Shown piece after piece: positions 4,626 through 28,167 of a stretch of DNA of 34,421 bases. The stretch is from Alphaproteobacteria bacterium (lineage in GTDB: Bacteria; Pseudomonadota; Alphaproteobacteria; SMXQ01): contig WHSO01000034.1 of NCBI GenBank assembly GCA_009380075.1, forward strand, positions 1 through 34,421. The letters are read 5' to 3'. Under the pieces are notes generated by a model, which saw nothing but the letters and a program-made list of their open reading frames with translations, was not told where the DNA came from and ran no database searches. Within the stretch, counting starts at the first letter, position 1; each line of letters opens with the position of its first letter. A program made the position numbers and the translations under genes.

Positions 4626-6089
<1,464 letters not shown>

Positions 6090-6181
6090 TTCGCCGATCG
6101 GCCCGGCGCAGCCGCGGCTTGATCGGGGCCGCGCCCGGGTCTAACTTGATTCGCGGGCGAAACGATTTCCCGGGGGAAGCT

Positions 6182-6532
6182 GTGGGGGTATTCCTGTCCG
6201 TGGGCCAGGCGCTCGCCATCCTGCGCGACGCCATTCTCGAATCCGTACGCTACGATCCGCGCGACCTGACCCAGCGCCAGACCGCGGTGATGCTGATGGT
6301 CTATCTGTCGTCGGCGCCGATGACGGTGCGCGGGCTCGCCGCCGCGCTCGCCGTCGGCAAGCCCGCCATCAGCCGCGCGCTGGACCGGCTCGAGGCGCTG
6401 GGGCTCCTGCGCCGCATGCCGGACACGCGCGACCGGCGCTCGATCATCGTCGCCCGCACCTTCGCCGGTACCGTCTATGTGCACGAGCTCGCCGACCGGA
6501 TGGTGACGGCGGCGGCCCTGTCGCAGGACTGA
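6182..6532 (+). CDS. MarR-like winged helix regulator, short
   Basis: A 116-residue protein with a probable GTG start at 6182, preceded by CGGGGGAAGCT as ribosome site. A winged helix-turn-helix spans about residues 28-95: LTQRQTAVMLMVYL, MTVRGLAAALAVGKPAISRA (recognition helix) and the wing LLRRMPDTRDRRSIIV. It is shorter than usual MarR proteins (about 140-150 residues) and lacks much of the C-terminal dimerisation helix. The frame is open far upstream through the aminopeptidase gene, but composition and family similarity support only the part from 6182. It may control its own gene, the aminopeptidase, or the bufferin operon that starts 156 bases downstream; the target is unknown. Confidence 0.78.
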   Translation: MGVFLSVGQALAILRDAILESVRYDPRDLTQRQTAVMLMVYLSSAPMTVRGLAAALAVGKPAISRALDRLEALGLLRRMPDTRDRRSIIVARTFAGTVYVHELADRMVTAAALSQD

Positions 6533-6688
6533 TCTCGGCACAACCGCCGCCCCGCCCCGCATCCTCGCGCGCGTCTCACAACAAGTTGAAAAGTCGTGTC
6601 GTGCGCGATCGGCGGCGACGGTTACGCTGGTCCCGTTCACGGATGCCCCGACGCGTCCCCCCAACAAGAAAACCCGAAGGAGATTTCC

Positions 6689-7039
6689 ATGTCCAAGCTC
6701 AACACGACCTTTTCCGCCGCGGCGCTCGCCGGCGCCTTCGCCGCCGCCGTGTCCATCGCCGCCAGCCCCGTCCTGGCCCAGGACGCCAAGGAGAAATGCT
6801 ACGGCGTTTCCATGAAGGGCAAGAACGACTGCGCCGCGGGCCCCGGCACGACCTGCGCCGGCACCTCCAAGGTCAACTACCAGGGCAATGCCTGGTCGTA
6901 CGTTCCCGCCGGCACCTGCGCCAAAATGAAGTCGCCCACCTCGCCCACCGGCTTCGGCCAGCTCAAGGCCTTCAAGGAAACGAAGATGATGAAGGATAAG
7001 GGCATGATGAAGGACAACATGAAGAAGGACGGCATGTAA
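6689..7039 (+). CDS. bufA1: Bufferin-type precursor peptide (DUF2282) with Met/Lys-rich tail
   Basis: A 116-residue secreted peptide; ATG 6689 follows a strong CGAAGGAG ribosome site. Residues 1-30 are a Sec-type signal peptide ending SPVLA. The core contains [22 protein letters not shown] and VPAGTC, giving four cysteines at 37, 48, 56 and 77, the DUF2282 pattern. In the characterised Caulobacter bufferin of this family, core cysteines are converted by the MNIO enzyme to thiooxazoles and the exported product binds copper; that role is inferred here. After residue 98 comes an unusual tail with repeated MMK and MKK units (Met 100, 101, 106, 107, 111, 116). The gene heads an operon with the DUF692, DUF2063 and DoxX genes. 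The symbol is by family. Confidence 0.92.
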
Positions 7040-7062
7040 TTCGTGCTGATCCGGTCGCGATC

Positions 7063-7968
7063 ATGAAGGTCCTGGCCACTCCTGCGACCCGTCCTCCGCC
7101 GGGTGGTTTCGGCGCCGGCCTGCCCGCGCAGGCCGGCGTCGGCCTCAAGGCGGAGCACCTCGACGCCGTCCTCGGCGGCGGCCACGGGGTCGCGTTCTTC
7201 GAGGTCCATGCCGAGAACTACATGGGCGACGGCGGCCCGGCGCACCGCGGCCTCTCGGCGGTGCGCGACCGCTGGCCGCTGTCGGTCCACGGCGTCGGGC
7301 TGTCGCTGGGCGGCGCGGCGCGGCCCGACCGCGACCACCTCGCGCGCCTGCGCCGCCTGTGCGACCGCTACGAGCCCGCCGCTTTCTCCGAACACCTGGC
7401 GTGGTCGAGCCACGGCGGCGTCTTCTACAACGATCTGCTGCCGCTGCCCTACGACGCGCCGACGCTCCGGCGCGTCATCGCCCATGTGAACGAGGTGCAG
7501 GACGTGCTCGGCCGCGTCATGCTGCTGGAAAACCCGTCGACCTATGTCGGCTTCGACGCCTCCACCATGTCGGAGGTGGACTTCCTGACCGGGATCGCGC
7601 GGGCCACCGGCTGCGGGCTGCTGCTCGACGTCAACAACGTGTACGTCTCGGCGACCAACGCGGGGTTCGACGCAGAGGCCTATATCGCCGCCTTCCCGGT
7701 GGAGCGCGTCGGCGAGATCCATCTCGCCGGGTTCGCCGAGGATGCGAGCCCGGGGCCGCGGCTGCTGATCGACAACCATGGTGCGCCGGTGGATGCCGCA
7801 GTGTGGGCGCTCTACCGCGCGGCGCTGGCGCGGACCGGCCCGGTGCCGGTGCTGATCGAGCGCGACACCAACATCCCGGAATTCTCCGTCCTCGCGCGCG
7901 AAGCGGAACATGCGGCCCGTCTGCTGGCCACCGGCACGCGCCCGGCGCGGACGGCGGTGGCACGATGA
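7063..7968 (+). CDS. bufB: MNIO (DUF692) RiPP-modifying enzyme
   Basis: A 301-residue TIM-barrel protein of the multinuclear non-heme iron-dependent oxidase family. Polar residues expected to bind the iron cluster are present in order: EVHAEN (His49, Glu51, Asn52), SVHGVG (His76), SEHLAW (Glu110, His111), LENPSTY (Glu156, Asn157), LLDVNNVYV (Asp189, Asn191, Asn192), EIHLAGF (Glu218, His220), IDNHG (Asp237, His239) and VLIERDTNIP (Glu266, Asp268). These enzymes modify cysteines in precursor peptides, here probably converting Cys to 5-thiooxazole in the peptide encoded 23 bases upstream. The stop overlaps the DUF2063 start (ATGA), indicating translational coupling. The ribosome site is weak. 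Confidence 0.95.
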   Translation: MKVLATPATRPPPGGFGAGLPAQAGVGLKAEHLDAVLGGGHGVAFFEVHAENYMGDGGPAHRGLSAVRDRWPLSVHGVGLSLGGAARPDRDHLARLRRLCDRYEPAAFSEHLAWSSHGGVFYNDLLPLPYDAPTLRRVIAHVNEVQDVLGRVMLLENPSTYVGFDASTMSEVDFLTGIARATGCGLLLDVNNVYVSATNAGFDAEAYIAAFPVERVGEIHLAGFAEDASPGPRLLIDNHGAPVDAAVWALYRAALARTGPVPVLIERDTNIPEFSVLAREAEHAARLLATGTRPARTAVAR

Positions 7969-8738
7969 ACGCCTCGCCCTTTCAGGCCGGATTCGGCGCG
8001 GCGCTGCTCGACGCCGACCTTCCGCCGCCCGATGGCCTGCGGGTGCCCGCGGGCGATTCGCCGGCGCGCCGCTTCGCCGTCTATCGCAACAACGTCCTCG
8101 TCTCCCTGGTCGATGCGCTGGCGGCGCGCTTTCCGGTGACCGAACGCCTGGTCGGCACCGATTTCTTCCGCGCCATGGCCCAGGCCTTCGCCGCCGCCGC
8201 GCCGCCGCGCTCGCCCCTGCTGACGGTCTATGGCGACGCCTTCGCCGATTTCATCGCCGCCTTCCCGCCGGCGGCAGGCGCGCCGTATCTGGCCGATGTC
8301 GCCCGCCTCGAGGCGGTATGTACCCGCGCCTATCACGCCGCCGATGTCGCGCCCCTGCCGGAGGCGGCGATGCGGGCGCTTGCGGCGCGCGACGGTGAAA
8401 AACTGCTCGCCACCCGCCTGACCCTGCATCCGTCGGTCGAGGTGTTGCATTCGCCCTTCGCCGTCGCCACCATCTGGGCGGCGCATCAGGGGGACGACGT
8501 GCCCTGCGGCCTCGACCCCGAGGGGCCCGAGGACGTGCTCGTCGCCCGCCCGGAATCCGATGTCGAGGTCACGCGGCTGCCGCCGGGCGGTGCCATCTTC
8601 GTCGGTGCGCTCGGCGACGGTGTGACCCTGGCGGAGGCCGCCCAGACGGCTTGTGTCGCGGAACCGGGGTTCGACCCGACCGAAAACCTGGTTGCGCTGA
8701 TCGGCGCGCGGGTGATCATTGCCGTTTCCGACGGTTGA
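7965..8738 (+). CDS. bufC: DUF2063 partner protein of the MNIO enzyme
   Basis: A 257-residue protein whose N-terminal half is a DUF2063 domain: FQAGFGAALL near residues 6-15, RRFAVYRNNVLVSLVDALAA, FPVTERLVGTDFFRAMAQAF, and the LADVARLEAVCTRAYHAAD helix. The C-terminal half is a smaller alpha-beta domain. Proteins of this type pair with DUF692 enzymes and are thought to recognise the precursor's leader region (which here is the signal peptide) and present it to the enzyme. Overlap of the start with the MNIO stop (4 bases) fits a stoichiometric complex. The symbol follows bufferin operon usage and is by family plus context. Confidence 0.92.
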   Translation: MNASPFQAGFGAALLDADLPPPDGLRVPAGDSPARRFAVYRNNVLVSLVDALAARFPVTERLVGTDFFRAMAQAFAAAAPPRSPLLTVYGDAFADFIAAFPPAAGAPYLADVARLEAVCTRAYHAADVAPLPEAAMRALAARDGEKLLATRLTLHPSVEVLHSPFAVATIWAAHQGDDVPCGLDPEGPEDVLVARPESDVEVTRLPPGGAIFVGALGDGVTLAEAAQTACVAEPGFDPTENLVALIGARVIIAVSDG

Positions 8739-8750
8739 GGGGAGGGATCC

Positions 8751-9278
8751 ATGGCTATACCGCTGGACAACACGGCGGCCGGTGCCGCCTGGAAGAGGTA
8801 CGGCCCGGTGGGGCGGCTCGCCGCCGCACTGCATGGGGCGATGGCGGGTATCCCGCACTGGTTTGTCGCGGCGCTGGCGCGGTTCTCCATCGCTGCGGTG
8901 TTCTGGAAGTCGGGACAGACAAAGGTGGCGGGTTTCCAGCTCGATCCCATCGGCGGGGTATTTGAGATCGGCTGGCCGCGGCTTTCAGACAGCGCCGTGG
9001 CGCTGTTCCGCGAGGAATACCGCCTGCCGCTGATTCCGCCCGAGGTCGCGGCGCCGCTCGCCGCGGCGGCGGAGCACGTCTTCCCGTTCCTGATCCTGAT
9101 CGGCCTCGCGACCCGGTTCTCGGCGCTGGCGCTGCTGGCGATGACCGCAGTCATCCAGGTGTTCGTCTACCCCGGGGCCTATCCGGTGCACGGCACCTGG
9201 GCGGCGATCCTGCTGTTCCTGATGGCCTGGGGGCCGGGGGCGCTGTCCGTCGACCGGCTGATCGCCGCCCGCACCTGA
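8751..9278 (+). CDS. DoxX family membrane protein of the bufferin operon
   Basis: A 175-residue inner-membrane protein. After about 35 residues it has four hydrophobic segments: around FVAALARFSIAAVFWKSG (about 38-55), the PPEVAAPLAAAAEHVFPFLI region, a segment through ALALLAMTAVIQVFVYPGAY, and AAILLFLMAWGPGALSVDRL. The WKSGQTK motif and the final GPGALSVDRLI stretch are typical of DoxX. DoxX proteins frequently close bufferin-like operons and are thought to link to respiratory quinones or redox chemistry, but their exact part in metallophore making or export is not established. It starts 12 bases after the DUF2063 stop with a GGGGAGGGATCC ribosome site and ends just before a strong hairpin. 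Confidence 0.9.
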   Translation: MAIPLDNTAAGAAWKRYGPVGRLAAALHGAMAGIPHWFVAALARFSIAAVFWKSGQTKVAGFQLDPIGGVFEIGWPRLSDSAVALFREEYRLPLIPPEVAAPLAAAAEHVFPFLILIGLATRFSALALLAMTAVIQVFVYPGAYPVHGTWAAILLFLMAWGPGALSVDRLIAART

Positions 9279-9332: not shown

Positions 9333-9659
9333 TCAGATTTTCAGGCCCGTCTCGATGAGATGGAGCGATTTTTCCGGATCGAGGCCTTCGCCGGTGGCCA
9401 GCACGCAACTGACGTTTTCCTCGTCGGTGACGAGCGCCGTCCAGGTGCCCTCGGTGGGCGATACGTGGAATTCGAGCAGGCCGGTGCCCTTGATCTCGTG
9501 CACCTCGGCGAGCTGTTCGCCGTACTCGTCGATCAGGGTATCGATCATATGGGAGCGGTCGATGCAGAGGCGTTGCTGCGCCTGGGCCGTTTGCGGCGCG
9601 ATGGCCAGCAGCGCGGCGACCAGGACGGGCAGTGTCAGAAGACTCGCAAGCTTCCTCAT
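9333..9659 (-). CDS. Small secreted protein of unknown function
   Basis: A 108-residue protein with a clear signal peptide (MRKLASLLTLPVLVAALLAI, cleavage near AQTAQA|QQ, about residue 28). The mature part has two cysteines (32 and 85), which could form a disulfide in the periplasm, and a regular pattern of short strands (GLLEFHVSPTEGTWTALVTD). I do not recognise a named domain; similar small periplasmic proteins are widespread in alphaproteobacteria. It shares its terminator hairpin with the bufferin operon that converges on it. That is suggestive of position only, not of common function. The ribosome site is AGAGG, just below a hairpin at 9669-9693. Confidence 0.82.
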   Translation of the reverse strand: MRKLASLLTLPVLVAALLAIAPQTAQAQQRLCIDRSHMIDTLIDEYGEQLAEVHEIKGTGLLEFHVSPTEGTWTALVTDEENVSCVLATGEGLDPEKSLHLIETGLKI

Positions 9660-23785: not shown

Positions 23786-24358
23786 ATGGAAGCCTTCCTC
23801 GTCTCCCTCGGCGTCGTCGCCATCGCCGAAATTGGCGACAAGACGCAGTTGCTCGCCATCGTGCTGGCGGCGCGCTACCGCGCGCCCTATGCGATCTGCG
23901 CCGGCATCCTGCTCGCCACCATCGCCAACCACGCGCTCGCTGCCGCCTTCGGCGGGCTGGTGGCGGACTGGCTCGGCCCCGCCTGGCTGCGCTGGCTGCT
24001 GGCGGCGAGTTTCCTCGCCATGGCCGCCTGGGTGCTGGTGCCCGACAAGGCCGACGACCGACCCACCACGGCGGCGCGGGCGAGCGCCTTCCTCGCGACG
24101 CTCGTCTCCTTCTTCCTGGTCGAGATCGGCGACAAGACCCAGGTCGCGACCATCGCGCTCGCCGCGCGCTATCACGACGTGGTGCTGGTGACGCTCGGCA
24201 CCACGCTCGGCATGATGGCGGCGAACGTGCCGGCGGTGTGGCTCGGCGAGGTGGCGGCGACGAAGCTGCCGATGCGCCTGATGCGCGTGATCGCGGCGGC
24301 GATCTTTGCCGCCCTCGGCCTCGGCGCGCTGTTCAATATCGGCAACGTGTTCGGATAG
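23786..24358 (+). CDS. GDT1/UPF0016 family manganese exporter
   Basis: A 190-residue membrane protein with six hydrophobic segments arranged as two homologous halves. Each half carries the family motif: AEIGDKTQLL (residues 15-21 core) and VEIGDKTQVA (113-119 core). These acidic motifs bind the transported cation. Bacterial members such as MntX export manganese from the cytoplasm. The Mn2+ riboswitch in its leader supports this substrate directly. ATG 23786 is preferred because the first membrane span starts there; a longer open frame upstream runs through the riboswitch. Confidence 0.93.
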   Translation: MEAFLVSLGVVAIAEIGDKTQLLAIVLAARYRAPYAICAGILLATIANHALAAAFGGLVADWLGPAWLRWLLAASFLAMAAWVLVPDKADDRPTTAARASAFLATLVSFFLVEIGDKTQVATIALAARYHDVVLVTLGTTLGMMAANVPAVWLGEVAATKLPMRLMRVIAAAIFAALGLGALFNIGNVFG

Positions 24359-28012: not shown

Positions 28013-28106
28013 GGGAGGCTGGCGGTGGACGTGCACCCCGCCAACCCGGTCAGGTCCGGAAGGAAGCAGCCGTAACGGGATTCGCCCGGGTCATTGTCAG
28101 TCTCCC
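28013..28106 (+). ncRNA. ffs: Signal recognition particle RNA, small bacterial type
   Basis: The 94-base RNA folds into one long hairpin: GGGAGGCTG at the 5' end pairs with CAGTCTCCC at the 3' end. The apical part shows the invariant sequences CAGGTCCGGAAGGAAGCAGC and CCGTAACGG-type pairing around the GGAA tetraloop, the Ffh-binding site. It works with Ffh to target proteins to the membrane. It stands 61 bases before dnaX, the common alphaproteobacterial order. Confidence 0.96.
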
Positions 28107-28167
28107 ACCCGCCTGCGTCTTTTCACTCCGAGAGGAGCCCTCCGGCCCCGAGGCCCGCGATTCCGCC

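Follow-up and report, generated by a model that had tools for sequence, protein, structure and literature searches.

Bufferins, which are copper-binding RiPPs, have only recently been recognised as a class, and little attention has been paid to their C-termini. Thousands of Buf1 bufferin operons exist. In Buf1 operons such as Caulobacter CC3254-CC3257, the genes follow the order bufABCD and encode a four-cysteine precursor with a signal peptide, an MNIO enzyme, a DUF2063-RRE partner, and a DoxX protein. The DUF2063 plus RRE architecture defines type-1 MNIO partners (PMC12452194; PMC12668002), and one such protein, NGO1945 (3dee), acts in thiooxazole formation (PMC12668002). Of the four Buf1 cysteines, the central pair undergoes modification, and the first and last form a disulphide (PMC12452194). 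Thiooxazole chemistry and copper binding have both been described for characterised Buf1 systems (PMC12452194; PMC12668002). In Caulobacter, the copper-induced SigF regulon comprises two bufferin operons together with MsrPQ (PMC8224329; PMC3511200).

Two other groups of systems are relevant to the present work. Captophorins and oxazolin (hvfABC, fonABC) are likewise produced by an MNIO and a PME type-1 partner and carry copper-binding 5-thiooxazoles. Some oxazolin clusters include molybdenum-oxidoreductase and ferric-reductase genes (PMC12452194). The second group is that of the secreted MXKDX proteins (TIGR02953), exemplified by MsrX in Azospira and BcrX in Brucella. These periplasmic methionine-rich peptides scavenge hypochlorite and take part in resistance to it alongside methionine sulphoxide reductase, and in Brucella the SigF-like factor BcrS drives the MXKDX peptide and MsrQP (PMC8315932).

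Here we describe a bufABCD operon found on a 34,421-nucleotide stretch of alphaproteobacterial DNA (contig WHSO01000034.1), called the window below. The operon is of the known Buf1 kind; what is unusual is the tail of its precursor.

A Buf1 operon of the known kind

Four consecutive genes on the forward strand occupy positions 6689-9278 of the window:
6689..7039, forward (+): bufA, Buf1 (DUF2282) bufferin precursor, 116 aa (PF10048, 87 bits, cut-off 22.4, E 8e-25)
7063..7968, forward (+): bufB, MNIO (DUF692) bufferin maturase, 301 aa (PF05114, E 7e-103; NCBIfam MNIO_BufB, NF050167, 374.5 bits, equivalog cut-off 310)
7965..7968, forward (+): ATGA overlap of the bufB stop TGA and the bufC start ATG, read from the sequence
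7965..8738, forward (+): bufC, DUF2063 partner with a C-terminal RRE-type fold, 257 aa (PF09836, E 1e-26)
8751..9278, forward (+): bufD, DoxX-family membrane protein, 175 aa (PF07681, 53.6 bits, cut-off 23.6, E 4e-14)

All four families exceed their curated Pfam cut-offs and BufB also exceeds its equivalog cut-off, far beyond chance. The initial annotation of a complete four-gene bufferin-type operon, with ATGA coupling between bufB and bufC, is thus confirmed. The order bufA-bufB-bufC, strict in Buf1 operons and often followed there by DoxX, is kept in the window, with DoxX last, and the same gene set is found in most of the relatives that were fetched. The assignment to a genuine Buf1 bufferin operon of known kind is therefore well supported. 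The NCBIfam HvfC and HvfX models, which would point to captophorins or oxazolin, stay below cut-off on the window. No NCBIfam precursor model exceeds its cut-off for BufA, and the BufA2 model matches below its own; these sub-threshold scores are as expected for a Buf1 system. BufA is also unlike the captophorin and oxazolin precursors, which are made of EGKCG repeats. The genome contains one DUF2282 gene and one MNIO gene, the latter being that of the window.

The families, conserved residues, and BufC fold can be established on the window proteins themselves. Compared with 134 BufB proteins, the window BufB lacks none of the His, Asp, Glu, and Asn residues with a conservation of 93% or more and departs nowhere from the strong consensus, so that all conserved residues of ligand type are present. 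The protein aligns with the MNIO structures 3bww, TglH, and MbnB through H, E, D-x-N-N, H, and D-x-H stretches. A PDB sequence search returned no direct match for either BufC or BufA. The AlphaFold2 model of BufC (pLDDT 91.9) matches two known MNIO partners, TglI (8hci_A) and NGO1945 (3dee), each with a Foldseek probability of 1.00. Over 140 aa, BufD shares about 70% identity with its counterparts in Pseudomonas operons.

Operons with the same four genes in the same order also occur on E. coli plasmids. In NZ_CP127851.1 (L216), a conjugative IncF plasmid of an E. coli from blood, a complete DUF2282-DUF692-DNA-binding-DoxX operon lies at 5048-8418 after a TetR gene, a point of difference from the window operon. 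In all, 248 plasmid records hold DUF2282 relatives, including 60 from Escherichia, and bufferin operons appear to be mobile in enterobacteria. Among the plasmid matches listed, none extends past residue 97 of the window precursor, in a BLAST search that masks low complexity.

The precursor core

The core of BufA carries the following features:
6689..6778, forward (+): probable Sec signal peptide, codons 1-30 (MSKLN...SPVLA/Q), called by eye from a hydrophobic Ala-rich stretch and an A-x-A-like site
6797..6799, forward (+): Cys37, outer, invariant, expected disulphide with Cys77 (role from PMC12452194)
6830..6832, forward (+): Cys48 (NDC), invariant, expected thiooxazole site (role from PMC12452194)
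6854..6856, forward (+): Cys56 (TTCAG), invariant, expected thiooxazole site (role from PMC12452194)
6917..6919, forward (+): Cys77, outer, invariant, expected disulphide with Cys37 (role from PMC12452194)

The probable signal peptide, assigned here by eye, has an equivalent position in aligned relatives. Alignment with named bufferins had been proposed as a check on the precursor; BufA shares 60-70% identity with the named Buf1 proteins from Pseudomonas, Thauera, and Contendobacter, and C37, C48, C56, and C77 are invariant in an alignment of 27 sequences. The four-cysteine core is therefore present as annotated, but the number of modified residues had been overstated. Since only the central cysteines are modified in Buf1, the mature peptide should contain two thiooxazoles instead of four, and C37 and C77 probably form a disulphide. 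The AlphaFold model of BufA (pLDDT 52) is too poor for use.

A methionine-rich tail resembling MXKDX repeats

The earlier account of the precursor omitted its most unusual feature, located at the C-terminus:
6986..7036, forward (+): methionine-rich MXKDX-like tail, 17 residues, codons 100-116, with three MxKD copies and a 15-bp tandem repeat at 7001-7036

Relatives of the window type end soon past the motif PTGFGQLxAFKE(K), whereas the window BufA runs on for 19 residues. Among 248 distinct Buf1 sequences, it is the sole carrier of MxKD and has the highest number of methionines after the last cysteine (seven). Among the 20,724 distinct open segments of the loci covered by this count, the window tail alone has at least two MxKD. 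When the letters of the tail were shuffled, three MxKD arose in 5 of 20,000 trials. The TIGR02953 model scores 12.2 bits on the tail, far below its 41-bit cut-off; hence, this is a resemblance in motif and not membership of the family. Judging from the motif, the tail may nevertheless work like an MXKDX repeat protein.

The three consecutive M-x-K-D-x units that end this bufferin differ from MsrX and BcrX, which are whole many-repeat proteins, encoded beside msrPQ in Brucella. Stand-alone MXKDX genes are found in about 4% of the sampled genomes of the class (15 of 385 at E <= 0.001, eight of them above cut-off). Their products, for example DGMMKKDTMSKDAMKKD (L287), resemble longer versions of the window tail. 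Fusion with a nearby stand-alone MXKDX gene was considered and rejected, the stretches of about 3 kb fetched around those genes containing no bufferin gene. A literature search found no bufferin-MXKDX fusion, and the words methionine and Met-rich are absent from the main text of a 2025 survey of MNIO precursors. In one other family, two Buf1 tails of at least 50 residues (L264 and L268, from G678 and G674) have a different Met-rich ending, MMEEEMDS or MMMDG.

Three readings of the tail have to be weighed. It might be neutral, a 15-bp repeat having grown past an old stop in a loosely constrained C-terminus without acquiring a function. The recognisable tandem repeat in the DNA, the free variation of Buf1 C-termini in length and sequence, and the occurrence of the exact tail in a single genome are all in keeping with such an origin. 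Retention of M-x-K-D three times argues against it. So does a second genome of the family, in which the Buf1 backbone and the locus are different but the precursor has MMQDGMMND at its C-terminus; a similar ending is seen in none of about 245 others, although with two cases coincidence is still possible. On balance, we regard a functionless tail as rather unlikely.

The tail should lie outside the cytoplasm and adds thioether sulphurs. If functional, these would either supply further ligands for Cu(I) or act, like MsrX, as a sacrificial oxidant sink that might be recycled by MsrP. Paired methionines a few residues apart are typical Cu(I) sites. The tail has paired methionines with such a spacing and is attached to a copper-binding peptide, with which it would share compartment and stress. 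A role as thioether ligands (Mets motif) instead of an oxidant sink is thus plausible, while falling short of probable, as the K-D spacing fits the oxidant-scavenging MXKDX family more exactly than CTR1-type motifs. We give the two functional roles about equal odds.

Regulation and a possible link to methionine repair

The initial annotation also held that the peptide is made in response to copper. The SigF-type promoter motif GTAAC-N15-19-CGWA was sought upstream of bufA, and none was found there or elsewhere in the window. With copies of the same locus counted separately, it precedes 36 of 190 Buf1 precursor genes, among them that of a relative in the family of the window (L179). Mismatched versions of the promoter were rejected as candidates, their matches being near chance level with none upstream of bufA. 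No sigma or anti-sigma genes adjoin the operon, in contrast with Caulobacter-type Buf1 operons, with their SigF-type promoter and sigF-nrsF neighbour. The own genome does encode sigF-nrsF, on another contig. The upstream MarR gene was rejected as a dedicated regulator, since relatives keep it in an equivalent neighbourhood that lacks the operon. The claim thus finds no support in the sequence, and copper induction of the window operon would be an extrapolation from Caulobacter, for which it is well documented (PMC8224329).

On the contig that carries sigF-nrsF (C81; L194, 3461-6190), these genes adjoin two secreted NPCA(P/A)K-repeat proteins. One of the two has a cytochrome P460 domain at its end, and upstream of the small one lies a SigF-type promoter. 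It is possible that these Cys-repeat proteins are SigF targets.

Neither a promoter nor a regulator of copper-responsive type could be recognised at the window operon, which leaves some room for a product directed against a different stress (gold, silver, mercury, chromate, or oxidants) and not against copper. Responses to Cr, Cd, Au, and Ag are known from related clusters (PMC3511200; PMC8224329), and some Buf fusions are located in mercury loci (PMC12452194). However, characterised Buf1 products bind copper and the Caulobacter sigF mutant is copper-sensitive (PMC8224329), so that we consider this alternative improbable.

The genome encodes MsrP (NF003767, 410 bits, cut-off 207) on a contig other than that of the operon, with no SigF-type promoter before the gene. 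Because related sigma factors control bufferins and MsrPQ in Caulobacter, and an MXKDX peptide and MsrPQ in Brucella, a single polypeptide may here unite metal buffering and methionine-based oxidant scavenging, as two arms of the same stress response.

Distribution and origin of the operon

The order to which the window belongs is represented in the genome set by one family of 11 genomes, of which two, that of the window and one other, have DUF2282. In that other genome (G001, L179), the bufferin gene lies elsewhere, adjoins sigF-nrsF, and has a SigF-type promoter. Four relatives keep the flanking genes (MarR and a small secreted-protein gene, with the M17 peptidase in two) but lack the intervening bufABCD. 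Only about 55 bp separate MarR from the small gene in G003, whereas in G010, of the same genus, an amidohydrolase-like gene occupies the position of the operon. Hence, the operon was either gained in the window lineage or lost in the others. Its patchy location is solid; its donor is not. Patchiness would also suit a decayed remnant, a reading that is scarcely credible for an operon with all frames open, conserved residues intact, and native GC3.

Whole-operon transfer from beta- or gammaproteobacteria, prompted by the closest matches of the precursor (Pseudomonas and Thauera), was not established. In a BufB tree, the placement of the window is not firm and same-class rows cluster with Roseovarius, which points to Alphaproteobacteria as the class of the window. 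By the AU test, the window may group with its relative from the family (p 0.215) or with the beta/gamma rows (p 0.51), neither being rejected. In the precursor alignment, an 11-residue ending occurs in class-mates (L109 and L112) as well, and the operon has native GC3.

Other features of the window were recorded. The small, probably secreted protein encoded downstream of the operon (9333-9659, reverse strand) has no Pfam match and is conserved close to MarR in five of the family's genomes. A Mn2+ riboswitch (RF00080, 23589-23731) lies ahead of a GDT1-family cation antiporter gene (23786-24358), and a bacterial small SRP RNA (RF00169) lies at 28014-28108.

Proposed function and significance

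By analogy with characterised relatives, from which the chemistry, export, and copper binding of the product are taken, bufABCD very probably makes a thiooxazole-bearing, copper-buffering peptide whose tail would add Cu(I) ligands or an oxidant sink. BufA would be synthesised with its Sec signal peptide and held by the RRE-type domain of BufC, in a cytoplasmic complex where BufB would contribute a multi-iron centre for oxidation of Cys48 and Cys56 to 5-thiooxazoles. The peptide would then be exported, and the Cys37-Cys77 disulphide would form. In the periplasm, the product would bind copper and lower its toxicity, with BufD (DoxX) assisting in some way.

A more specific proposal, which we advance tentatively and regard as rather unlikely, is that of a bifunctional RiPP. 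Its thiooxazole head would bind copper and its MsrX-like tail would quench hypochlorite or other oxidants and be recycled by MsrP, physically joining the metal-buffering arm of a SigF-type stress response to its arm of oxidant scavenging by methionine.

This BufA makes it possible to examine how a thiooxazole peptide benefits, if at all, from a methionine tail. More generally, the natural MXKDX fusion suggests how protection against copper and methionine-based protection against oxidants, which are co-regulated in Caulobacter, might combine.
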